From positions 209,732 to 273,731 of the forward strand of contig JASANH010001517.1 in NCBI GenBank assembly GCA_030248295.1: a stretch of 64,000 nucleotides of DNA, given 5' to 3'. The notes under the pieces were generated by a model. That model saw only the letters and a list, made by a program, of their open reading frames with translations. It was not told where the DNA came from and did not search any database. Shown here in pieces: positions 3,713 through 29,207 of this stretch. The stretch comes from Mesodorylaimus sp. YZB2_4 (lineage: Eukaryota; Nematoda; Enoplea; Dorylaimida; Dorylaimidae). How positions within the stretch are numbered: the first letter of the stretch is position 1; every line of letters begins with the position of its first letter. The translations under genes were made by a program, and so were the position numbers.

Positions 3713-4836
3713 GAGTAGGCAGGTGTGACAATCTCCGAGACTGGCTGATTGTGAATGAAATAGAAGCGTGTTTTGGAATTGATGCTGGAAATCGGGCTCG
3801 GCCCATCACCCCACAGGACATGCCACAGATGTGTAACAGCTACTATCGATGCATCTCATCACTTGTTTTCCAATGAGGGGTGATAGATCGAATAATAAAT
3901 CAATGAAGCGATAGAGTAGGTTTCTAAAGCATCATCAAGTTAAGGAAATAAATAGTTTAATTGGCTGACACGGAAAATATCTCATCAAAAAGTGATATTG
4001 TGCTTTATAAATGGTTAATACAACAACGTAAACAGCGAGAGGCGAAGAAAAATTATAAATAAAATACTGCGAATTTTATTCAATTTTTTTAAACAAAGTC
4101 TTGTTCACCTGGTTGTTAGCCTTACGCACTTGCTGTCTGCTCGAAGCGCCTGGCGCCATCGGATAGTTTGCGTAAGCAATAAAAACTAGTGTGGGTGTAG
4201 TTTTCAGTGTGTGCTTTTGAGATTGAGAAGAACATTGAGAACTCAATATTTCGTGCTGTGATTGTAGTGACAAGCGTGGTGCATGAGGCACACCCTAGTT
4301 ATCGAGTTGAAAAGCTGACCACTGCTGGCCACGTGAATGAGGGCAGCCAAAACTATGAACCAGAGTAAAAGCTACCGAAGGGAGCAACACAAGCCATTTA
4401 AAAAACAGCGGGCTTCTCACTGCACCGAGACACTACTATGTAAAAGCGGAGCCAGATTGAGAGATTTGTGCCGAATATGACCGAAATAAATTTAGCTCAA
4501 AGTTAGGCAAAACAGTTCCACCTTCCAAAAGATTATCAGAAGGTGGTCGGCATATGAACGTATAAACATATGCCAGCGCGGCTACGTGTCCATAAACGGC
4601 GCGAACTGGGATACCTGGCTAACAATGGAAGACCAGACCAGTCCTAGCACGTCCCCGTTCATCATTCGTTAGTCAGTTGTGACAACAGAAGATAAAGCGG
4701 CCATACCACCAATGTGCCAGGCAACCGCTTAGCACTTTCAGATAAAACTAGTTCTCAATTTTCATCAGCTGGCGGCTGACATTCTTTATAGAACATTGCT
4801 ATACATTTTATGACATTGTACAGTTAGCCGTTAAGA
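3713..4836. other. Spacer between the two complete SEC14-like genes
   Basis: No gene is seen. It holds the 3' flank of the upstream gene (AATAAA-type signals near 3894 and 3947) and presumably the promoter of the downstream gene. No clear TATA box stands within 100 bp of the start at 4837. Confidence 0.5.
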
Positions 4837-7037
4837 ATGGAGAAATTTCTGCCTCTTGTCAGTGAGTCGGAGAAAGAAGGCATCGAGAAGATCAGGCAAA
4901 TATTCGGGGACGAATTGCCCCATGACATAGACACCGATTTCAATCTCCGAAGATGGGTTTGTGGCTGGAAAGGGGACATGAAACAAATCGAACCCAGACT
5001 TCGTGCGTACATCCAAAACAGGAAGGCCCTCAAATTGGACGGCCCCGATCTTCTGGACCAACCTCTAGATCCCATTGTCCGTCGTGGGTTCAAGCATTTT
5101 TCCATCAGTGTTCGCGCAAATCCCTTGATCAATCCAATGGACAACACAGTGGTGTTGTATTATCGGTTGGAAAATGTTGATTTTCCAAAATTAACCAAGA
5201 TGTTTACTCCCAGCGAGTACTTGTATTTAACATTTCTGATGTCAGAAATGCTTCTTCGACAAATCCTTCATCAAGAAAAGATCAGTGGAAGGCCGTCTGG
5301 AGTTACCCTACTTTATGATTTATATGGAATTCATTTTGGCGATTTCATGAATCCATCAGCGCCGCACATGAAATTAGGGACCTTGGCCATGACGCTGCAG
5401 CAGGACTACTTCTGCGATTTGATGCATCAGTTCGTGTGCGTTCGTGTTCCCTCATTCATGAGCATATTGTGGGAAATCACAAAAAAGTTTATGAACGAAG
5501 CTACTCAAAAGAAATTTCTGATGTTTTCTGAACATAAATATCGGGAGCACATTTTTGACTACATCGATCCATCGTGCGTGCCAGTGTTTTTTGGGGGCGA
5601 ATATAGAGAGACTGAGGAGACCACTAATCCCCAAATGAAATATTTGCACATCGATGCAGATATGGGCACTTCGATTCCACAACCGGTGGTTGAATCAGAG
5701 TATTTCAAATCCTCGTGGACGCCTGAATGGATTCATGAGCACATCAAACCCAAGCACACTCTGACTGTCGTCAGGTCTGTGAAAGATGCGGAAAAAACAG
5801 AGCTGCGCTGGCAGTTCGAGACCAATTCCAATATCGATTTTGCAGTTTACTACGAAAAAGCGGGTAAGTGGTCATTGGCCACTGGAGTTTGGGTGGCCAG
5901 AAGTGATGTCCAGCTATGGTGTCTTTATAGGGGGAAAAATATTTTCTAGGGGCTATATCAAAACTTCTTTGTTTCCTTTTTTGGCCCATTTTCTCGTTCC
6001 AGGCGAGGCTACCTTTTTATTGTTTTGGAAAACAGGACTTGACTGTTGAGCCTAGTTATGCTGCCGCCCGTGACGGATGTATGTTCACAATCAGAGAGAG
6101 CGCGTAGAGCTCTTTTTACGCGATTTTGGTTCCCCAAACCCGCCAGCGCCCGTGAGGGGACCTGGATTAAAGACTCCGCCATACTGTACATATATCTACG
6201 TAATGGCTTTCGGCTTTCGGCTTTCGCCCTGAAGAGATAAAAAGTGGCTCAGCCATCGTCGGGCGTGCAGGGCGTTATTAAATAAACCCAGTTTCTCTGA
6301 CGGCTGGGATTCGAACCCAGGTCGACCAGCTGCTATGACAGACGCCTTCACCACTTTTGCCCTGTTTTCTCGTTTGTTGCTTCCCAGTGCGAGTCTGTTG
6401 CACCAGCATCGACCGAATCCCTGAACTGGCTGAACCAAACCACCACACTGGCGATCTTTTACCGAACCGAGTCAGCTTTTTTGGACAGAACCACTGAACA
6501 GAACCAATGCATTTGGAATTTCCTGCGCACATTCGTGAAAATGCGAATATTTTGCTCCAGATTTCAGTTTTGCGATGATTTTCTTTTTTTTTCTTACTTG
6601 TGGTTCTGTCTTTATTGACTTCAAAATTTGCATTCCAAAACTGGTTCAACGGGATTGACTACTAAAACTTTGAAATTATAGGTGATGATAAACTGAATGT
6701 AGGATATAAGATGTATGAAAACATGGGAAATTCGGTTCGGTTTAGTCGATGCTGGGTTGCGTGGCGAGGATAAATATATGAGACGGCAGTTTTGGTAGCC
6801 TCGGAGGGAGCTGTTTTCTGCATGCACCTACAGTAACTAATATTGCTCTTTACTGTAGGTCAGCCCCGGAAATTGGTGATTCCGAAATTGACTCTCTGCA
6901 CGCCTCACTTTCCAGAAGACAATCATTTATTCTGCCGCGATCACGGCGAAGGTGATTATATCTTCGAGTTCACAAATCATAGCACTACTTGGTTTAGTTT
7001 GAAATTATCCTACTGTATTGTGGAAAGGGAAGTGTAG
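4837..7037 (+). CDS. SEC14-like protein (CRAL-TRIO + GOLD), two exons, second complete copy
   Basis: Exons are 4837-5863 (1027 nt, the same length as exon 1 of the upstream copy) and 6859-7037 (179 nt, again identical in length), joined in phase 1 by a GTAAGT donor and a CTGTAG acceptor, for 401 residues. The CRAL-TRIO N region (DTDFNLRRWVCGWKGD) and the SEC14 core (block GIHFGDFMNPSAPHMKL) are present. A C-terminal GOLD domain is split at the same codon as in the paralogues. The role is inferred as cytosolic lipid transfer or sensing. The ATG context is CAGTTAGCCGTTAAGAATGG. Reading through the donor gives a false 370-residue frame. The intron holds a tRNA-like SINE fragment. Confidence 0.93.
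6240..6372 (-). mobile_element. SINE-B type fragment with tRNA-Ser/Leu-like head
   Basis: On the minus strand a box A-like GTGGTGAAGGCGTCTG and a perfect T arm CTGGG-TTCGAAT-CCCAG are followed by a body that ends GATGGCTGAGCCACTTTTTA. The acceptor stem does not pair, so it is not a functional tRNA. A sister copy with head GCGGGTTAAGGCGTCTG is at 43556. It lies in the SEC14-like intron, in antisense. Confidence 0.65.
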
Positions 7038-7905: not shown

Positions 7906-8589
7906 TTATCGTGTGGGAAACCTGTCAGGGAAAACTTTACACTCACAAAACACAACAACGTTATACTTAACAAACTCCCAAGCCTCCACTAAAATCGGTT
8001 CGTCTTTGTCCAGAACATCGTAGGGTAACATGTCCACATTATTGGCCGTGATCTCGACGCAGGTACCGGGTAGACGTCGCAGAACATTGACCAGGTACGT
8101 TCGAGGTCTGCAATAATATGTCCCGAAGAAGCACCGGTCGCTCGTACATTTCTTAGAATTCAAATATCGTGGATAATGATCAAGACCCAAATCGACCACT
8201 TCCGGCACCGTATCGCAAGTCCATGGTTCCTTCCAATTCCGTCTTCTATGTCGTCTACCCGATGTACCGAAATCATCCGCCATGTCCAAGCTGGCTAATT
8301 GGGGTCCTAATGGAGCAGAGTTTGATTTCCTCGGGTCGGCCATACTCATGTAACGAGCATCGAATGCTTCGCCTAATCGTCGATGTAAAGATTCATCGGG
8401 CATCGGTCGGCAATATCGCTGATTTGAAACGTGCAGGCCCAAACCTAGCACCAAATCCAGATTCGAACAAATGAAGGTCGATAATACGAGTAAATGTAAA
8501 AATAATAACCCGAGCATGGCCTCTGCATTGGATAAAATAACAGACGAAGAATAACGTAAATTATGCGGCACAATGGTCATCGCACGCAC
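7906..8589 (-). CDS. Trunk/PTTH-like secreted cystine-knot ligand
   Basis: One open frame of 227 residues. The likely start is the in-frame Met at about residue 25, since it leads straight into a signal peptide core (LGLLFLHLLVLSTFICS). A low-complexity pro-region ends in a basic cleavage site RRHRRR, giving a mature domain of about 115 residues. The mature domain has seven cysteines spaced as in insect PTTH and Trunk: one in PWTC, two in KKCTSDRC, one in YYCRPR, one in GTC and a terminal CEC pair. It also shares the block DLGLDHYPRYL, which noggin resembles. Family members are secreted dimers; in insects they activate the Torso receptor tyrosine kinase to control terminal patterning or moulting. 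The last residues after CEC may be intronic. Noggin-like is the main alternative. It is divergent from the gene at 9101. Confidence 0.72.
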   Translation of the reverse strand: MRAMTIVPHNLRYSSSVILSNAEAMLGLLFLHLLVLSTFICSNLDLVLGLGLHVSNQRYCRPMPDESLHRRLGEAFDARYMSMADPRKSNSAPLGPQLASLDMADDFGTSGRRHRRRNWKEPWTCDTVPEVVDLGLDHYPRYLNSKKCTSDRCFFGTYYCRPRTYLVNVLRRLPGTCVEITANNVDMLPYDVLDKDEPILVEAWEFVKYNVVVFCECKVFPDRFPTR

Positions 8590-9100
8590 GAGGTCAACAA
8601 AGCAGCCGCTTCAACAAATCGACATTAGTGACCAATCGGTCACCTCTTCCCGCCAAGGTTGTTGTCTGTATGCCTGCGCATCACAAAATGGCGCCAAATT
8701 CAAATGGTTGTAGGATTTAAGAATTATAGTAATATTGAGTTTTTATCAGTGGGCAATAATGGATACAGTCTGATAAATGTGTAAGCTGATAAGTCAGTAA
8801 TATTCATCATTAGTACTCATATTCTGATTAGTATTCATATGCTCTTCCTCCCACCACCAAACAACCGGCATCAATGCAAGTGCTACGATGACAAGGTGAC
8901 TGCAGAAAATGGGGTCTTTGCGCGACAAGCCATGATGACAGGCTGCAACATACTTCACACTGCTTACAACAAAGCGGAACCGAGACAGTATCTGGTCACT
9001 TTGCATTGCTCCTCCCGTCGGGGGTGGTCGTGTCTGATTCATGCTCGGCACATTGTTTTGTCACCTACAGTATTTGTCAACAGTCGTTGCCTTGGAAGAA
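8590..9100. other. Divergent intergenic region
   Basis: This 511-bp gap separates the minus-strand ligand gene from the plus-strand membrane protein gene and must hold both promoters. No clear TATA box or repeat is seen. Confidence 0.4.
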
Positions 9101-17760: not shown

Positions 17761-18876
17761 TTACTGGTTCTGCCAGGCTTCTCGAGCGTCATTATTTAAC
17801 CCCTGTGATTGGCCACCACCCAGCTCTGATCCTGCATTGCAGCGCGAGAAAAGCTGATGGATAGGCAGCACACTGAGATAGGCTTCCCTAGTCTTCTTAC
17901 TGGCCGCAATTTGGACTAGAAAGTCCATTGTATCAGCTACTTCGATGCCCAGGTCTACGAATGGGGCATTAAATGTGCCCCAACAAGCCAACCAGTCGCG
18001 AGGAGCAGCCAAAAATATGACAGTGAACGCCGAGTTTGGTGTTTGATTAATTAGGCCCAGACAGCTTTGGCATATAGCCAAAATTTAAAAAGCCCTTTCG
18101 GCCGCAGCATGCTTTCTCTGCTCATTATCAACTGTCATTTTTTCAAGCTTTTTCGTGCGTCGGCGCAAGGCGGCGACCAAAAGAATATTGAAAACCATCA
18201 ACATGATCACGGGAAACACTCTTGCAGCCGAGCGCAGATAACCAATGCTTTGACCCCAAACAGTGAAAAGTACGCTAGTATTGGTTGACCGGATGACGAA
18301 TATTTCGTCTCCATCGCTTGTGTGATTTGCTGCACTGTCGAAGCTTGATCTAGCGTACACTTCGAACACCCATCCGTCCCACACGTTTAGAATTACAGCC
18401 AAAGCTAGGCAAGCTGTTGCGGCTGATATGTGGTACAATTTGGCATTTTTCTTTTCGTATTCTACTGGGCTCCATAAGGAGAACACTCGATCAGCTGACA
18501 TGGAAAGTGTCAACAGTAATGAGTTCATAGTAAATATGGCACTAATAGGCATGATGATGTGGGCGGTAAAATACTGCAAATTGTATATTCTCATAAAACC
18601 AACCACGCCTTCATTGAGAAATCCACTGCAGTCATAAACGACTATAAAAAGCATTTCAGTGAAAATTTCGGAAATTTTACTGACTGTTAAATAGATTTGA
18701 TAAATGTAAGCGTCTTCTTTTTTGGATTGCTGATAAAAACTTATCAGCGAAACTATGTGTCCGCTTAGACCCACTAAAAAATAAAGGGGTGGCAAAATCC
18801 TGTAGGCGATAAACCTAAGATAATAAATGGCCATTTGAATAAATTCTTTGTCACACAGATAATCCATGATTACCAC
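17761..18876 (-). pseudogene. Rhodopsin-class (peptide-type) GPCR, intronless, with one in-frame TAA
   Basis: Frame 18876-18085 gives TM1 to TM5. It includes a TM1 core YFLVGLSGHIVSLISFY, an ionic-lock variant ADRV in place of DRY at the end of TM3, N-glycosylation sites in the second outer loop and a basic third inner loop (RRRTKKLEK). The same frame continues after a single TAA (18085-18087) to 17761 with TM6 and TM7-like segments, a TM7 end (VADTMDFLVQIAASK) and a C tail. The family looks like the divergent FMRFamide-receptor-like GPCRs expanded in invertebrates. Either this is a recent pseudogene or a polymorphic null, or the stop is a sequence error. No GT-AG intron removes the stop. Confidence 0.68.
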
Positions 18877-18879
18877 TCT

Positions 18880-19574
18880 CGCCTTTTATTGTGCATAAAG
18901 ATTTTATTGGTCAGTAGGCGTTGAGCGCCATGGTCTTCCGAGTGTCTTGACTAATTTCGAAGGGGATACTCAGTGATTCGAGCAAGAGGGGAACAACATC
19001 AGAGTGCGAATGCTGGAAACCAAAGGAGGGTTCAACTCCATGACGAATAATCTGCATTTGGTTTGCTCAAGCTGCAATAGTGAGCTTTTGATATGGCGTC
19101 TAAGCTATGTGAATACTTCGAATAATGATCCTGCTCTCTGTGCTATGACAGTTGAATTGAAAAGCCAATGAGGCCGGTTAGTAGTCGTTCAGTGCATAGA
19201 GCGCCAGACAGAAAGGCCAAAAAAGGGCGTGCCAGCTGCACAGAATTGCGAAAGATGGCAGTTCTTACTAAAAGTGTAGCTCTCATTGGCGTATACTCAT
19301 CATCCTATGTAATTAAAACATCATCGTCAGTGTCCAGTAGTCTCGCGCACTTGGCGTCGCGCATCTCTTATTGAGGGAATACAATGATAGACCCAAGGGA
19401 CTAACGATAAGAGATGAGTTTGTGAGTTTGGGCCTCATTTTTCACTGACTCCATGTACAACTTCTCTTTGATTCCACTTTTTTCACCTCACAGGTAGATG
19501 CAGTTATTTTCAGATCATGGCCAGATAGGGGGCCATAAAATTTGGGCTTCTTGGTTAGATAGCGCTGGTGTGAT
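18880..19574. other. Stretch without recognised genes
   Basis: No gene is seen between the GPCR start and the left LTR of element A. The GPCR promoter should lie at its left end; no TATA box was recognised. Confidence 0.4.
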
Positions 19575-19742
19575 TGTAGTATGTTCACCCGCCACGCGCC
19601 AAGCGACTTTACTAGACGGCGACCCGGGACAAGACTACTTATCGTTAGTTAGTCCATATCGGCACACACGACGAGACCAGACACAAAAAGTTGAAGGGCA
19701 TGATTAGAACCAGTTATAAGTAAACATCACGTTATCACTACA
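19575..19742 (-). repeat. LTR of element A (3' LTR)
   Basis: The 168-bp repeat starts TGTAGT and ends ACTACA, with 5-bp inverted ends. It differs from the right copy by three substitutions and one 6-bp indel by eye, so the insertion is young. Confidence 0.93.
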
Positions 19743-19799: not shown

Positions 19800-20865
19800 G
19801 GAGGAAAAAAAACAAACAAATCACCATAAGTCACGCTTGGACCGATGACGTCGATCATGTTGGGCACGAGGAAGTGTCTGAGTCGAATAGGGCGAACGTG
19901 GTCTTGATGAGCGGAAACGATCGTAACGAGGTGGAGGGCTGGGCGTGGGTGTGGACTGGCGGAGGGCTCGAGGTCTGGATCGGGACCGTGACCGTGATCG
20001 CGTTCGGGACGAGGCACGTAGCTGTGCGCTACGAGCGGGCTGTACGGTATCTCTGGAAGGACCCAATCGAAGGAAGGACCCAAGGAGGACCCAATCGAAG
20101 GAAGACTGACCCTTCCCGTCGCCTACCAGGCGTAGTCACGGCAGGAGACGTCGCTCGCCCGTCGGGCGTGTCATCGAGGACGACATCCACTGTACCCAGC
20201 GACGAGCAATCTGAACGGACTTCGACGTCCTCGAGCAACTGTGGTGATCCATCCGTTGGTGCCTGAGAATGGTCACGCGCCTGATCCGACAGGGATTGAT
20301 GTTCACGTTTCCGCACCCGACTCCGGACTAAACGTGGAATGGCTTCACGTCGGACCATGCCCTGGAATGCCAAGAATCGTTGACACAGCATATTAAAGCG
20401 AGAAACAGACAAATTCGCCTCTCAAAATCGACAAGCTGCCCACACGTAATAAGAGTGCTCGAAGGCTCGGAGTTGTCCTAGGGAGAGCCTCGAGTTATCA
20501 AAATCCAGCAGAGTGCGTATGGCAGGGGACCTGTAGAACTGATGACACTCCCGCAATAAAGCCTTCTCCCGCTGAGAAACCCTATCACTCTCCAAAGGCT
20601 GTTCCCAAAATTCTGGAAACCTCGGGTCCAAATCACTCTCGGCTGGGCCCACCAAGGGCGGTATAGAATGAGCTGACTGAGGCGCCGTCACTGGCACTCC
20701 CGACGGCTCCCTGTGATGAGTACAGTCGACCAACGAAGCTCGGCCCGGACGACCCGAACCAAAACTCGATTCGCCTCCCAGGCATCGTCCAGGAGACCCG
20801 AATCGATGCCATCGTTCCTGGCACCGCCACCGGAAACTCATCACTAAAACAAAACGCAAAAACAA
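19800..20865 (-). pseudogene. 3' ORF of element A, gag-like candidate with Arg/Ser-rich tail
   Basis: Minus-strand frame 20865-20422 continues in frame, past one TGA, to 20029. A duplicated GGACCCAATCGAAGG segment (about 20058-20103) then shifts the frame into an Arg/Ser/Pro-rich end that stops near 19824. The product would have a Pro-rich N part, a helical middle (RECHQFYRSPAIRTLLDFDN, then FNMLCQRFLAFQGM) and a basic RSRSRSRPR-type tail. Basic Arg-rich tails are used by some Gag/core proteins to bind nucleic acid. No zinc knuckle is seen. Its place downstream of integrase is unusual. A role as Gag is inference; an accessory or captured ORF is possible. Confidence 0.5.
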
Positions 20866-21009
20866 GGAGTTCGTTAAATGATTAGGGTGGAAACAGGGCC
20901 CTCACACCCAAACATCGTAATTCCAACTAGAAAGAAAAAACGTCAGCAGTGGATAGACCCGGTGTAAAACAAATGCACACAAAACACACAGCAAGGTCAT
21001 GCGACTGGT

Positions 21010-22920
21010 TCAGTCGCTAGCATCGATGTCCGCTTGACGTGCTTGCGCTGCGGCGAACTCCTCCAACTGAGCCATGGCTGTGCGAATCGCCTTTTTCTGA
21101 GAAGCATGCATCGCCTTCGTCTCGAAATATGGCTCGATGTCTTTCAGGTGCACAAAAGCCTGGCGATCACGATCATTTATAAAATAAACTAATATCCAAG
21201 GACCCTTTGTACGCGGTTTTAGACATTTGGCTTCCGACTATGGCAGTACACGAGCAGGCCACCAAGGAATATATTTGAGTTTAGCCCACACCAAAGAGCC
21301 AGGTACTAATTGCGAAGTCTGCCCACCGGGCGTGATATTCGTGCCGTGACTCTTCGATTCCTTGATGTTCACCCACTGATCGTTCTCAGATTCTGGTTCG
21401 TCCTCCGGACGTCCTGACACTGACCCCCGATATAGTTGCAAGTGATTCACGTGAATGAGCTTGTCAGCGCCAGCACTAAGCAGCGGACGAATGCATGCGG
21501 TCACTTGCGATGGCATTGCGACAATACGATATGGACCCGAAAAACGATCACATAGTTTGGCAGACAAACGTCGTGGTGCTGCATTCCTCCTAATCATGAC
21601 TAATGAGCCGACTTTAAAAGGAATTTCATGGGCTGCCCTGTTATACTGCTTAGCCTGCTGTTCCTGAGCTGCGGAAATCGATTTGCGTACTTCGGTGTAA
21701 GCATCGGCTAAACGTTTTTTCAACTGCACTACATAGTCGTGGGCTAAGTATTGCTGCGAGTCATCTGAACCAAAGGCGCGATCGAAGGGGAACGGCAACT
21801 CTCGGCCATAGACCAGTGAGGCTGGTGAGTAACCCGTGGATGAGTGCAAACTCGAGCGAAAGGCAAATAAGGCAAACGGGCTGAATAAGTCCCAGTCTTC
21901 CTGATGAGCACTTGCGTAGACTGCAATACTGTCGATCAAAACCTTGTTATACCGTTCGACTTGTCCATCGCACTGTGGGTGATATGCTGTAGTGGATAAC
22001 TTGCGGATGTCCAGAAAGCGACAAATACCACGAAACAGATCGGATGTGAATTGAGACCCTAAATCAGACAATACTGTACGCGGGCATCCAAAGCGACAAA
22101 TAATATGCTCCACGAAAATCTGTGCGATGGTTTCAGTTCTGCAATCAGGCATTGCGACTGCTTCCAGCCACTTTGTAAATGCATCGATAAGCACTAAGAT
22201 GTACTGATTGCCGGCGCGTGTAGTTGTCATTGGTCCAACGATATCCAAACTGATACGTTCGAATGGATTACGCACTGGGATCGAAACCAAAGGTGCTTTC
22301 CCCCACTTATGCGGCGACTTACGACGAGCACAAATCAAATAAGTACGGCAGTAGTTGTGCACATCCCTACGCATCGATGGCCAGTAGACACGGTCCATAA
22401 GACGAGCCAAGGTGCGTTCTTCTCCCATGTGACCCGCCAGAGGATCGTTGTGAAATGCTGCCAAGACTTCCTGCTTCAGACTAGATGGTAAGGCAAGAAC
22501 TGAGCTTGTGATACCACGAGATTTGCGACGGCGCGGAAAGCAAAAGCAAAAACGAAGAACTGAGCCCTTATCTCCCTGCAGAAAGTATGACTCTGCCAAC
22601 TTCGCCAGTTCCTCTCTCTCCCCCTCAACGCAGGTACCAGCCTCCACAAAATCGATAATACGCTTCAAAAACGGATCTTCTTCTTGCTCTCTGCGCAGCA
22701 CTGTATCATCAAAAATGCCAATTCGTCCTCCGCCACGCACTCTTCCCCGTCATCTCCGACAGATATACCCGAATCTATAGGTGCCAGCGTTGCGTGGGTG
22801 ATACCCGAGATCATGCGAACCATGCTCGAAGAAGGCTCTGCAGTAGGAAGGCGGGACAATGCGTTCGCGTGACCCTGAGCTGTACCGCCGAAGTCATTGG
22901 TTGCCCATATTCGGTCACGT
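21010..22920 (-). pseudogene. Element A pol 3' part: RNase H tail, integrase and C-terminal PWWP-like domain
   Basis: Reading leftwards, an RNase H end (GHANALSRLP, near 22860) is followed, after a frameshift near 22735, by a 500-codon integrase frame (22740-21238). It has the HHCC zinc-binding region (HNDPLAGHMG, then CRTYLIC) and the DDE core: Asp in SLDIVGP, Asp in VLSDLGSQF and Glu in DGQVERYNK. After the usual GPY/F-like part (FSGPYRIV) comes a linker, then VPGSLVWAKLKYIPWWPARV, a textbook PWWP start. A TAG at 21240-21238 interrupts. The frame then stays open to a TGA at 21010 and supplies the rest of a PWWP fold (GPWILVYF, HLKDIEPYFE) and a helical tail. PWWP domains read methylated histone H3K36 and DNA, so a targeting role is inferred. 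Confidence 0.82.
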
Positions 22921-23214
22921 TTGGGGCATGAGGCTCAGTGTGCAGTGGCTGGGTCGCAGTTGAGCGTAGGTCTGACTGGAATCGACTCGTTACAAGTCAG
23001 CGACTCGATCGACGACACCACTGCGCGTCACTACAAGGAGCTCTTGGATCGCTATGTCACGCTTAAGTTTGTATCTCACATTCCAGCATTATCTTATGCT
23101 GCTCCAATTGCCTCTCTTCCTGCCGTTTTCGTTCCTCAGCCTCTCTCTGCCTGTCTTCTAGTTGCCTTTCTTCCTGGCGTTTCCGCTCCTCAGCTTCGCG
23201 GCGCCTGTCCTTAA

Positions 23215-26200
23215 ACTGAAGGGAGACGGCCTCGTGCCAGTGATGGTAGCTAATACAGCTACGGACGATAAGGTATTGCATAAAAATACGCGAGTCGGCC
23301 AGTTCACGGTCATCGATAAGGGTGACCAAGTGGTGGCAGCTTGCGGTTCTGCCGAGGGTAAACCGGTGTCCATTATGGACCCAATCGCGAAGATCGATTG
23401 GAGGGAGTCAGAGTTGACTGAGGATCAACGGAAACGCGTTGTTAGCGTATTACGTCAATACGAAGATGCTTTTGCTGAGCATGAAGGTGATATCGGAAAG
23501 ACGACGTTGCTACAACACAAAATCGTGTTGACAGGGGCGCCTCCGCCCAAGATGAGAGCTCGGAGAATACCAGAGGCAGTGAAGCCAGAGGTTGAGCGGC
23601 AATTGAAGGTGATGCAAACGCACGGTTGGATCAAACCGTCGTGCAGCCCAGTATCGGCTCCGCTAGTTATAGTGCCAAAGAAGGATGGAGGCACTAGGAT
23701 TTGTATTGACTTCCGGGCATTGAATGCTGCAACAAAGAAGGACTTGTACCCCATGCCACGCGTAGACGAAGCGTTGGATGCATTGGGAGGTGCGAAATGG
23801 TTCACAAGTTTGGACCTTCAGAGTGGGTACTGGCAGGTACCACTGAGCCCAGAGTCACAAGAATGGACGGCATTTTCAGCGCCAGGTGGACAATTCGAGT
23901 TCACAGTAATGCCATTTGGGTTAGTGAATGCGGGAGCGACATGTGAACGACTACTGGAGATGGTCCTATCGGGCCTGCAGTGGGATCACTGTTTGGTTTA
24001 TATCGATGATATACTGATCTACAGTAAAACGTTTGACGATCACTTGCGGCATATCGGCAATAAGTTTGATCGGTTAGTGAAAGCGGGCTTGAAGGTTAAG
24101 CCATCAAAATGTCACTTCGCGAGGGCTGAAGTACCTTTCCTGGGTCATGTGGTCTCGAAGGCTGGGATCAACATGGACGAGAAGAAGGTTGCAGCAGTGC
24201 GGAAGTTTCCAGGCCCACAGAACATCAAGGATGTGTGGCGGTTCCTGGGTATGTGCAACTTCTATCGGGATTTCATCCCTCGATTTGCCATGATAGCGGC
24301 TCCGTTGTACAAACTGCTATGCAAAGATCAGAGCTTCGTCTGGGATACCCAGTGCGAGGACGCGTTTATGGCGTTAAAGGAGATGTTGGTGTCCAAAGCG
24401 ATCTTGCGGTTCCCTGATTTCAAAAGGCAGTTCATACTGCAGACAGATGCGTCGAATGTCGGCATCGGGGCAGTGCTGTATCAACAGCATGGGAACGACA
24501 AATGGGACGTAGCATACGCGTCAAGGACGCTAACGAAAGCTGAAAAGAATTATTCAGCGCTGGAGAAGGAATGCTTAGCGGTTGTTGAATATGTTAAGCA
24601 CTTTCGACCATACCTTTATGGGGCAAAGTTCCTGTTGAGGACAGACCATCAACCGCTGAAGTGGCTGATGGCACACAAGGAACCCACAGGTCGGATTGCA
24701 CGGTGGGTATACCAGTTGTCGGAATACACGTTTGATGTAGAGCATGTACCGGGGAAGACCAATGTTGTGGCAGATGCACTTTCTCGAAGCCCGATGTGCA
24801 TGGTTTGCCCAGTGGCTGTAGAGACAGTCGGACAAAAAGCAGTGGAGTTGTCGGACCAGACACTTAAGGACGCACAGAGGGCAGATCAGTTCTGTCGGGC
24901 GCTAATTGACTATTTGGAACAAAGAATGTTGCCCAAAGATCCGCGGGATGCGAGGCGGCTAAAAAAGCTTGCGCAGAGCTTTAGTCTTTCGGAAATGGGC
25001 GTATACATTTTCCATTGGGGCAAGAACGGAGAAAAGAGGATTGGATACAGATGGTAGTTCCATTATCCTTGCAGCGCTTGGTGTTTGACGCACTGCATGG
25101 TGATGCCATGGCAGGTCATTTGGGTTTCACGAAGACCTTTGTCAAGCTGAGGCAACGGTTCCTTTGGCCAGGCATGTACAAGGACACTTTTCGCTGATGT
25201 CAAAGTTGTTTGCCATGTGCGAAGAACAAATCGTATGGTCAGACGGGTCGGGCACCCTTGAAACCACTGTGTGTGGAGAATCCGTTCGAGTTGGTGGCGA
25301 TCGATGCCACGGTTCCATTCCCTACAGATAGGGATGGCAGTAAATACGTCGTAATCGTGAGCGACTACTTGACGAAGTACATCGAGGCGTTCGCAGTGCC
25401 AGACATCAAGGCAGCGACGGTAGCCCAGATCTTGGTAGACAAGATCATATGTCGGTGGGGAGCGCCACGACGATTGCTGTCGGACAGAGGGGCTAATTTT
25501 ACCTCAGCGTTGGTGCAGGGCGTGTGCGAGGCATTGCGCATCAAACGATCCCTGACGGTAGCGTACAGACCTCAGACTGATGGTCAGGTGGAGAGAGTGA
25601 ATCGCGTGTTTCGCGATATGCTGAGAATCTACGTAGACCAAGATCACCAGGACAATTGGAGTGGTTTTGTTCCGTTTGCCCGATTCGCGTACAATACGTC
25701 AGTCCATGAAGCGACGGGTGAGACTCCGTTCTTTCTGATGCATGGTTTTGATGCACGGTTGGTGATCGATACGGGTATCTCGAGTTCGGCTAACAAATTT
25801 GGCAGCGCGATTGAATATCGCGATAACGTGGTGCAGCAGCTCGAGCGAGCTCGGAGGTTAGCTTATGAGAGCATAGAACGAGTGCAAGAACAGCGTAAGG
25901 AACGTTGGGATAAGAATACGAAACTGGAGAAGGAGTTTCAGGCTGGTGATATGGTGATGTATAAGCGAATGCAAACACCGGCAGGCTTATCATCGAAGCT
26001 GTTGGGCTCCTGGACTGGACCCTATCGTGTCACGCAAGTGATATCGGCTCACAACTTGATTATCTGCCCGCAAGGAGGATTAGTTGGCGAGGAGAAGCGT
26101 GTTCACGTAGAACAGGTGAAGCGGTATGTGCCCGAGGTGGATAGGCCACGCAAACCAAGACTGCTGAAGGTCGGTGATGCAGTGTGAACCAAACTGAAGT

Positions 26201-26478
26201 ACCACCCATATTTGCCAGCACGTATAGTGGATGAAACGGAATTCCCGGATAAGAGGCCTATAAAACCAAATTGGGTTCGTGTTCACTTTTTCGGCGAGAA
26301 GAAGTACGGACTAGTCGAGCGCGATAACATCTTCGACTACAGGCAGTATAAGGAGGTGTTAGCCTCCAAGGCGGTAGGTTTGCCTCGTGCGATGCGAGAC
26401 GCGGAGAGGTACTTGGAGGAGGAGAAGGACACGCGCAGTCGTGTGGCTTTGGTGAAGGAGAGACGGAAGTGGGTGCAA
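23215..26478 (+). pseudogene. Element B pol: RT, RNase H, integrase and PWWP-like C terminus
   Basis: The frame ending at 25057 carries a complete RT (KKDGGTRICIDFRALN; catalytic box YIDDILIYS) and RNase H (TDASNVGIGAVL; end motif VVADALSR). A frameshift near 25040 leads to integrase with zinc-binding His/Cys residues (HGDAMAGHLG; one TGA at about 25196), then the DDE core (AIDATVPFP, LLSDRGANF, DGQVERVNR) to 26187. After the GPY motif (WTGPYRVTQV) the frame reads KVGDAV, a TGA, then TKLKYHPYLPARIV and WVRVHFFG. This aligns with the PWWP start of element A, with PYLP in place of PWWP and the stop at the position of the first Trp of A's VWAK. The frame runs on to 26478. It is non-functional as it stands. 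Confidence 0.83.
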
Positions 26479-26625
26479 TAGGAATCGGAGACGTCGGTCA
26501 AACTCAATCAACAGCGTACAATACGGTCGTACGATGTCAATGAAGATGGGCGACTTACGACGTCAATGATCATGATTTTTGCGTTTCGATATTTTGTGTT
26601 TCGTGTAAACTGAGGGGGAGGTGAA

Positions 26626-26824
26626 TGTCACGGTTAAGTTTGTATCTCCCGCGTGGATATCATGTAGTGTAGTGTGCGTTATCGTAAAGCTTGCTCGCCA
26701 GGGCTACGGCTAGAGCAGGCGAACTGTGTAGAGTACGGAGGACCGTAATATAATTCTCGTCTAGTGCGGTTGGTCTCGAGATTACTCTTCTCCACACGCG
26801 GTCACGTCGGACAGCAACGTGACA
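26626..26824 (+). repeat. 3' LTR of element B
   Basis: It begins TGTCACG and ends CGTGACA (7-bp inverted ends), is 199 bp long, and is preceded by a polypurine tract and followed by the target duplication GCTA. Confidence 0.88.
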
Positions 26825-27124
26825 GCTATAAGGAACCACTGAAATCTATTCCTCCGCCAGCTAAGCAAGATCCGTCGCGCGTGGAGAGATTGCGTTCAAA
26901 GTTTAACATTTCTACAGCATGTCTAACAGATGAAGAACAAGCAGCCTTCGTGGACTTGATGTGTCAAAACGCAGACATCTTTGGTGAGTCGAATAAGGAT
27001 TTGGGGTGTATGCCAGGCGTCCATCATTACATTGACACAGGAGATGCTGCACCAGTCAAACGACAGCCATACGGGGTTCCGCAGGCCAAACAAGAGGAAC
27101 TACGTCGTCAAGTTGAAGAAGGCC

Positions 27125-27462
27125 TGTAACGACGCTGTCTTACGCTACCGGGTCGACCAGGTTCCTATCCCCCGGCTACGGTATGAGGACCGCAACTAGG
27201 TCGGAGACTTACCAAGCTTCCAATGGTTCATCGCTGATGGCCTCGACCAATCTCACCCAACTTTACTCAAACTCTCGACACAGCCGCAAGTGCCCCGAAT
27301 CAAAAACGAGAGACTGAGAGCGCGCAAGCTCTCCTCAGCTCTGCAGCTCTTCTTACCAGCCAATACTCACGCGCCCACACGCAGACACACCTGAGACACA
27401 GACAATGAAGTGGCGCCACATTCAAACCCCCAAGACAACGGACATCTCACAACTTCATCACA
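27125..27462. repeat. Solo LTR of a third retrotransposon
   Basis: A 338-bp insertion begins TGTAACGACG and ends TTCATCACA. It splits an RT codon series and is flanked by the 4-bp duplication GGCC (27121-27124 and 27463-27466). Removing it restores the reading frame of the RT piece. The TG...CA ends and target duplication make it a solo LTR. No internal coding sequence is present. Confidence 0.82.
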
Positions 27463-27689
27463 GGCCTCAAGAATGGTGTCTTGACTCACTCTTGCAGTCC
27501 GTGGGCGTCCCCGACTCTTCTAGTCAAGAAAGCTGATGGCTCCTGGCGTTTCTGCGTGGATTATCGCTTGTTGAACGCCGTCACCAAGAAGGACGTTTTC
27601 CCGCTACCTCACATTGAGACTCTTTTGAACAAGTTGCAAGGCAGCGTCATTTTCAGTGTTTGTGACATGCAACTAACGCCCTCATCCCT

Positions 27690-28715
27690 CACCGAGGGTT
27701 CTCCTTCGATATACTGAAACTGTTCAAGCGTGCCACACGGTATGTGATCGGAGAGTGCTAACTCATTCTCTCCAAAATTGACCAAGCACACTGGAAAACG
27801 CTGAGCCTCATTCAATTTGACCAAACTCGCGGGGGCAGCTACATTAAACTGCTTTTGAAAATCGGATGAGGGTATGAAAACCATCAAATCCTTATTCGGA
27901 CTCTCCGCCTGCGCCCAGAACAATTTCTGACTTCGGGGTGGAACGACCATGGACTCAGATGGACCACGGATCAGACGAACATTGGCCGTAGCCCGACAAA
28001 GCTCTCGTTGGAAAAACGAAACCATAGTACCGCAAAACGGATCACGCATCAGACGAATCGACTTGGCGTAATACGATATATCGGCTCCAAACACGTGAAG
28101 AAAATCTGATCCAAGAATGCAACCCCGATACGTGCCACACATAACATGCATGGGCCATTCCACTGTGATGCCTCTCACTGTGACTCCGATCAAGGCGATT
28201 CCCAACAAAGGCACGTCGTCTCCACTAGCTGCCTTACAACTCCAAATGCCCTTGTACAATGTGATCGGTGTGTTTCCCTGGCGCAATGAATCAATATGAA
28301 TCAAAGATATCTCAGCTCCAGAATCAACCAAGGCTACAACCTCAACGCCATTCACTAAGATCGACAATTCTGGACCAGAAACCAAACGAGCCAATGATCC
28401 TGGTGACTCCGCGTATGTTACATTATAGGTGTGCGATATCATCTTACCCCGTGCAGGGGATGGAACATCAGGGAGCTGCTTCAACTGAATGCGAAAATAC
28501 GCGCGAATACGACAGATAAGCTCATCGCGTCCCACGCGTGACTGATCCAACAGATTGTCCATCGAAATGTCTTTATGCAGACAGAAATTCACCAGGTACC
28601 GCAAAGGCAGGTCACTCAGATCCCGAAGAGCATACTTCCGTGCCAAGTCAACACCATCAGGACCAATAACTACATTCGACTGGTCCGCCACCTCCGGCGG
28701 TGCATCGGTCGCCAT
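27690..28715 (-). CDS. Element A 5' ORF: short N region plus aspartic protease
   Basis: The minus-strand frame starts with an ATG at 28715. Residues 1 to about 115 form an acidic helical N part without a zinc knuckle, followed by a retropepsin fold with the active site ALVDSGAEISLI (catalytic Asp in DSG) and a flap-like ILGSDFL segment. The C part (VPPRSQKLFWAQAE) resembles the linker between protease and RT. The frame crosses the inversion junction near 27690 and ends artificially at 27609. Only about 330 bp lie between the LTR and this ATG, too little for a normal gag. Confidence 0.78.
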
Positions 28716-29045
28716 GCTGGCGTGAGTATCACAAATATTCGAGGATGTTGGAGATACGCCAAAAACAAGCTGCCAATAGTCCAGTGCGTGACGGTAAGGT
28801 GACGCTCCCCAAAACGCTACGCCTCAATCGCCGGCCTACACTCAATTAAGAAAACTTGTGTTACCTGGAAGGCGTCAGACACTGTTCCGATATCGAACGA
28901 TTGAGATTGATGACTTGGCCGCACGAACGTCGAATCATAGAACCGATCTGCTTGTTCGATCAATTGATCGGCCCCCGGCCGTCTGATGGTTTCACCTTAA
29001 AAGGAAAGAGAAAAAAAAGGCAGCAAACGTGGGCCGACGCACCAG

Positions 29046-29207
29046 TGTAGTACGTTCACCCGCCACGCGCCAAGCGACTTTACTAGACGGCGACCCGGGA
29101 CAAGACTACTTAGTTAGTCCACATCGGCACACACGACGAGACCAGACACAAAAGGTTGAAGGGCATGATTAGAACCAGTTATAAGTAAACATCACGTTAT
29201 CACTACA
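29046..29207 (-). repeat. LTR of element A (5' LTR)
   Basis: The 162-bp repeat is nearly identical to 19575-19742. On the minus strand it is followed by CTGGTGCGTCGG, whose TGG could start a primer-binding site complementary to a tRNA 3' end. Confidence 0.93.

Follow-up and report, generated by a model that had tools for sequence, protein, structure and literature searches.

The question raised by this locus is whether a chromatin reader, the PWWP domain, has become part of the integrase of retrotransposons. The window (the whole stretch of DNA analyzed, 64,000 nucleotides of contig JASANH010001517.1 of the nematode Mesodorylaimus sp. YZB2_4) contains two gypsy-type elements, here called A and B. 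A reading of the letters alone, the sequence-only reading, had proposed that a PWWP domain closes both integrases, in the position that the chromodomain occupies in chromoviruses. A search of the rest of the genome has upheld this proposal. These are Ty3/gypsy long terminal repeat (LTR) retrotransposons in which a PWWP domain forms the end of integrase, at the chromovirus chromodomain position, and this chromovirus-like arrangement is a real, recurrent fusion, present in at least three gypsy lineages. By analogy, it is likely that the domain acts as a built-in chromatin tether, working in cis as LEDGF/p75 does in trans for the integrase of lentiviruses.

The PWWP Tails of Elements A and B

The features on which the assignment depends are the following.

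21061-21300, minus strand: PWWP domain of element A, C-terminal in the integrase frame, with one in-frame stop inside
21238-21240, minus strand: in-frame stop inside the PWWP stretch of element A; copy broken
21976-22269, minus strand: integrase core (rve) of element A; PF00665, 47.1 bits, residues 161-258 of frame 21241-22749
22315-22488, minus strand: integrase H2C2 zinc-binding domain of element A; PF17921, 73.1 bits, residues 88-145
25279-25572, plus strand: integrase core (rve) of element B; PF00665, 47.4 bits, within frame 25198-26184
26173-26412, plus strand: PWWP domain of element B, C-terminal in the integrase frame, with one in-frame stop inside
26185-26187, plus strand: in-frame stop of element B; copy broken

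The integrase frame of element A (22749-21241) carries Integrase_H2C2, then rve, and then the first 19 positions of PF00855; past the stop, the same frame carries on with the remainder of that profile. In a six-frame search designed to read through stops, the whole stretch matches PF00855 at 57.4 bits (E 2.3e-13). The halves searched separately give 20.7 bits before the stop and 22.6 bits after it, each alone below the curated cut-off of 25.6 bits. The whole stretch of element B scores 40.5 bits (E 4.6e-8) in the six-frame search, and its 97-aa tail past the stop is above the cut-off on its own (36.8 bits, E 5.7e-9). The PWWP motifs picked out by eye in both elements are thus correct, and the profile result is joined by two others. 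In phmmer comparisons with solved PWWP domains, the tails are close to LEDGF/HDGF proteins, the A-family tail matching the PWWP of PSIP1 (LEDGF) at E 1.4e-7. A fold search supports the PWWP fold for element B, all 50 Foldseek matches listed being PWWP domains.

Unbroken Relatives in the Same Genome

The genome (145,146,385 bases in 1067 contigs) contains at least 146 PWWP matches, among 150 scored of 173 candidates; this number includes any host PWWP genes. At least 35 of them, counted by eye, fall within frames that run for 1000 aa or longer without a stop. Surroundings were taken for 40 places, equal to 41 PWWP matches, and are referred to below by L numbers. Since 103 of the 146 matches are neither in the window nor among these, further PWWP lineages may exist.

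Both rve and PWWP are present in nine of the 11 frames scanned with Pfam (L014, L010, L028, L031, L038, L033, L040, L047, and L046); the other two, L026 and L035, both short, have PWWP without rve. The unbroken relatives read RT (reverse transcriptase)-RNaseH-H2C2-rve-PWWP in one frame, and therefore the fusion of PWWP to integrase is real and the tail is not a separate frame. In L014, L010, L031, and L038, protease, RT, RNaseH, H2C2, and rve follow one another in the order of the Ty3/gypsy arrangement, the protease match of L014 and L010 falling just below the cut-off. PF00855 scores of these copies reach 57.1 bits (L014), 56.8 (L010), 45.8 (L031), 43.4 (L040), and 42.5 (L047). Across the genome, a PWWP lies downstream on the same strand for 41 of 150 scored rve matches (526 candidates), at a distance of 599-751 nt in 40 of the 41 pairs and 2430 nt in the remaining one. 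A uniform expectation for such pairing is 0.19; with 41 observed, the pairing is not due to chance.

Window element A is 93-95% identical to genome copies L009, L014, L016, and L017, and window element B is 97.7% identical to L031. Within families, the copies compared share 90-99.6% identity over 3.6-5.7 kb, which suggests recent activity of some families. Purifying selection is seen where it was measurable, in pairs of the A and B clades; lineage II, described below, is not among them. In the B-family pairs L031/L038 and L029/L034, RT-RNaseH is almost identical (pS 0.024) and the PWWP is strongly divergent at synonymous sites (pS 0.49 and 0.41), so that these copies look like mosaics, as if template switching had swapped the 3' end of pol. 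Many integrase and PWWP matches lie no more than about 1 kb from a contig start and point outwards (for example on contigs C58, C334, C396, C779, C402, C78, C128, and C174), a location that probably reflects assembly breakage at the (3') LTR. Minus-strand matches no more than 1.5 kb from a contig start number 9 of the 146 for PWWP and 12 of 109 for other rve.

Lineages and Relatives

In trees built from RT to integrase, with the PWWP columns excluded, the PWWP integrases split deeply into at least three lineages (A, B, and II). The A clade comprises L014, L010, and L028; the B clade comprises L029, L031, L038, and a metagenome protein, P0182; and lineage II comprises L040, L046, L047, and, in the quick tree, L033. 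The quick tree has 59 rows: of 226 collected homologs, 49 were taken, P0002 was then removed because of its length, and P0182 and 10 genome copies were added. The careful tree has 44; it is without the long branches P0225, P0186, P0012, P0057, and P0016, the under-half-filled rows L033, P0001, P0125, and P0126 (both sets flagged in the quick tree), and, for size alone, P0042, P0049, P0138, P0143, P0192, and P0214. Because their near-identical genome copies fall in different clades, window elements A and B belong to different lineages and, as had been claimed, are two different elements on opposite strands.

A and lineage II are joined with a support of 98 in the quick tree and 100/99 in the careful one. 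The lineage of element B is separate from A plus II in the free tree, which needs two changes, and a single clade of all PWWP rows does not reach rejection in the careful tree (approximately unbiased test, p-AU 0.292). A single capture is not readable from the PWWP itself, because identity between the three lineages (17-36%) is no higher than identity to five solved PWWPs (19-40%).

Several observations run counter to the reading given here. A protein database search listed 120 relatives for A (125 found), 61 for lineage II, and 45 for B, and PF00855 is present in 0 of 120, 0 of 61, and 1 of 45, respectively; a custom profile of the tails likewise finds a PWWP in only 1 of the 226 homologs. 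In addition, an AlphaFold2 (AF2) model of full-length P0182 has a pLDDT of about 30 across the PWWP stretch. P0182, which has a JGI source, is 53% identical to the B query over 94% of its length, and its PF00855 match was confirmed at 52.3 bits. The database search requires shared 5-residue words and a length window, which makes absence elsewhere weak evidence. Given the single carrier among 226, either few other genomes have the fusion or the database, within its word-sharing and length limits, does not contain its relatives. Scans that find close relatives only gave no confirmed relative in viral contigs (queried with the A, B, and lineage II tails) or in genome contigs (queried with P0182).

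Near relatives of the PWWP integrases either have no such domain or have a chromodomain at that place. Of 14 relatives with inspected tails, none has a PWWP by the custom profile and two, P0011 and P0013, both near the B lineage in the quick tree, have a chromodomain at this place (PF00385 confirmed for P0011, taken from precomputed annotation for P0013). The sequence-only reading knew of no described retrotransposon clade defined by a PWWP integrase, and none appears among the titles and abstract openings listed in the literature searched, which takes in few subscription journals and no preprints.

The Aromatic Cage

The cage of LEDGF consists of M15, Y18, W21, and F44. The M15A and Y18A substitutions lose specificity for K36me3 more than affinity, and W21A and F44A give no binding, perhaps via misfolding (PMC3663649). 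The residues at these four positions, in that order, in the copies aligned are L/I/W/F in the A family, with A-clade variants M/V/W/F (L010) and M/L/W/F (L028), and M/H/L/F in B copies, with L/H/L/F in L036. They are M/H/W/F in L026, M/N/W/F in L035, V/S/W/F in L033, V/Y/W/L in L040, and A/Q/W/F in P0182. Only L046-L048 of lineage II (V/F/W/F) have three aromatics at Y18, W21, and F44.

The suggestion that the domain reads methylation of histone H3 lysine 36 (H3K36) is thus supported only in part. It is unsupported for A and B, because the Y18 position is I in A and H in B, and B has L at W21; for L046-L048, what stands is the cage aromatics, which make this group a plausible methyl-lysine reader. 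For A and B, the safer reading of the residues is a clamp on nucleosomal DNA rather than a methyl reader, with the caution that B is without the W21 residue.

Insertion Sites

The sequence-only reading had also expected H3K36 reading to favor gene bodies. The checks of this preference, which were small, uncontrolled, or showed no difference, do not demonstrate it. The contig numbers of PWWP matches and of 109 rve matches without PWWP show no difference (p 0.14), in a comparison of coordinates only in which contig numbers fall with length for the contigs seen. Pairs within 20 kb number 10 for PWWP matches against 2.9 expected, and 2 for other rve against 1.6 expected. For seven A-clade insertions (L009, L010, L011, L012, L014, L016, and L017), an uncontrolled check covered 10 open reading frames (ORFs) in the flanks; host-type domains lie beside two of the seven, a ubiquitin-like domain at L010 and a glutamate-receptor-like one, below the cut-off, at L012. 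In the window, about 0.7 kb separates the end of element A from the receptor-like ORF 18085-18885, and the element does not lie inside that ORF. The ORF has a weak, sub-cut-off Srg match. Taken together, the insertion-site checks neither support nor refute gene-body targeting.

What the PWWP May Do

If the domain is a built-in tether, the PWWP would remain on integrase once the polyprotein has been processed, and would tether the integration complex to nucleosomes; strand transfer would then take place on the chromatin that the PWWP prefers. The complete-cage group L046-L048 may read a methyl-lysine mark, and A and B may rely mainly on contacts with nucleosomal DNA or on a different ligand. 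Nucleosome binding and the steering of integration by the PWWP are the inferred parts of this scheme. A more detailed version, put forward tentatively, is that these are old nematode gypsy lineages in which a PWWP replaced the chromodomain, that the cage of L046-L048 would direct them to H3K36-methylated gene bodies, and that the sister lineages, having lost the cage, would be nucleosome-DNA clamps, in parallel with cage-bearing and cage-less chromodomains of chromoviruses.

For A and B, the chances are close to even that the domain is simply an affinity module for DNA or nucleosomes, which raises the efficiency of integration without selecting a mark. A degenerate cage that is nevertheless under purifying selection would fit such a module, as would the net positive charge of ten representatives, which lies between +1 and +7 across at most 100 aa. 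So would the behavior of LEDGF Y18A and M15A described above, and the cage-less group II chromodomains of plant elements, which may be modules of this sort too, are likewise without a known ligand in the account of PMC3350952. However, the charge in the A clade is modest (+1 to +4), and B is without W21, whose loss in LEDGF abolished all binding (PMC3663649). It is unlikely that H3K36 methylation is what the PWWP reads in every one of these elements, including A and B, and that all of them are thereby sent into gene bodies. The identity of the domain, its closeness to LEDGF/HDGF proteins, and the three aromatics of L046-L048 argue for this, but the residues of A and B at the Y18 position and of B at W21 argue against it, as do the flanks, where only two of seven have a host-type ORF (10 ORFs, one match sub-cut-off, no control set), and the end of window element A outside the receptor-like ORF.

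Alternatively, the PWWP might serve something other than target choice, such as nuclear retention, particle assembly, or protection from silencing. Nothing here ties the domain directly to targeting, and in the integrase-like transposases of Ginger, the accessory C-terminal domains include proteases and PHD fingers (PMC2836005); yet the position of the PWWP after the integrase core is fixed and two relatives carry a chromodomain at the same place, so that such a role appears quite improbable. It is scarcely credible that the tail is a misread SH3/GPY/F region of integrase or a neighboring host exon. Both window copies do have a stop early in the PWWP stretch, but the open frames of the unbroken copies span rve through PWWP, which rules out a separate frame or host exon, and in L028 a sub-cut-off Integrase_p58_C match (21.5 bits) lies at 597-629, upstream of the PWWP at 685-757 and apart from it. 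A chromodomain misread as a PWWP is ruled out as well, since there is no PF00385 match in the 11 genome frames (E up to 0.01) or in 6 window pieces (E up to 1).

Other Features of the Window and the Genome

Beyond their integrases, the two elements have the following parts.

19575-19742, minus strand: 3' LTR of element A, TG...CA; direct repeat of 29046-29207
20029-20901, minus strand: extra coding region of element A between pol and the 3' LTR, RS-rich; split in the window copy
27612-28823, minus strand: open frame of element A with aspartic protease; PF13975, 28.2 bits, at the cut-off
29046-29207, minus strand: 5' LTR of element A, TG...CA; direct repeat of 19575-19742
23051-23054 (left) and 26825-26828 (right), plus strand: GCTA flanking element B; 5-base overlap of A-family alignments at both B edges
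23672-24151, plus strand: reverse transcriptase of element B; PF00078, 122 bits
24416-24727, plus strand: RNase H of element B; PF17917, 135.9 bits
26626-26824, plus strand: 3' LTR of element B, 199 bp, TGTCAC...GTGACA

Element B is nested inside element A, a point that the sequence-only reading did not contain, and the GCTA pair is an apparent target-site duplication of B within A. Only the start of a 5' LTR is present on the 5' side of B, and since matches to B copies start only at 23211, B is without its 5' part. The two LTRs of element A differ by 3 substitutions and one 6-bp indel; its outer flanks (GTGAT and ATAAC) do not match, and no target-site duplication is visible. Compared with A-family copies, the middle of element A is rearranged, in that the alignments of 22886-23055 and 26825-27671 are inverted, and the pol segment between bases 1473 and 2420 of L014 has no match in window element A. 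The inverted internal block, 22886-27671, encloses the nested element B. About 336 bp (27126-27461) without an A-family match lie between matches 26825-27125 and 27462-27671 of that block. Positions 27671-28439, in the protease frame, are 98-99% identical to A-family copies L014, L016, and L017. The RS-rich extra frame is intact elsewhere (330 aa in L006, at 1935-2924; 349 aa in L008, at 1907-2953), and no Pfam family is above the cut-off for it.

The host-type ORFs of the window at 1481-2602, 4828-5949, and 7906-8610 encode, in all, two CRAL_TRIO proteins and a Noggin-like protein. Cuticle collagen of the PF01484 type and TTAGGC repeats mark nematodes; the genome has 133 matches to the PF01484 cuticle-collagen N-terminal domain and 1893 to four-unit TTAGGC, against 1 for the reversed control, and by both marks it has the look of a nematode genome. 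TTAGGC arrays also lie well inside contigs (C15:246076-246784, C15:506545-506994, and others). A genome search for SL1 RNA gave no match, and its controls gave none either.

Known Systems and Significance

Chromoviruses share with these elements a gypsy polyprotein with a chromatin domain at its C-terminal end, past the integrase, and differ in that the domain there is a chromodomain and here a PWWP. An arthropod retrotransposon family has reportedly, to go by a title alone, captured a methyl-CpG-binding domain (MBD), which would likewise be retrotransposon capture of a chromatin-reading domain, though of a different kind. The chromodomains of chromoviruses have been proposed to direct integration to heterochromatin, that of MAGGY being reported to bind H3K9me2/3 (PMC3350952). 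Ginger1 transposases also join extra C-terminal domains to a gypsy-like integrase, but they are DNA transposons and the domains are OTU, Ulp1, or PHD, the word PWWP being absent from the text of that source (PMC2836005).

In LEDGF/p75 (PSIP1), a PWWP domain that binds H3K36me3 is again coupled to integrase; LEDGF, however, is a host protein that tethers lentiviral integrase in trans via its integrase-binding domain (IBD), whereas here the PWWP is part of the element's own integrase (PMC8149907). The cage of A and B, moreover, is incomplete. Chromatin readers have also been joined to integrase or its tether by design: integration was redirected when the LEDGF IBD was fused to PHD or HP1 chromodomains, direct integrase fusions often lost efficiency, and a fusion of prototype foamy virus (PFV) integrase to CBX1 had little effect (PMC8149907). 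Those are laboratory constructs; the PWWP fusion here is natural and common to deep lineages.

If the PWWP does steer integration, these elements would provide a natural, cis-acting counterpart of LEDGF and a second type of chromatin reader in the chromodomain slot. The genome also offers a natural comparison among related integrases whose PWWP has a full cage, is degenerate, or is missing altogether. Once chromatin data exist, insertion maps from this single genome would therefore allow a test of how far the reader influences where the elements insert.

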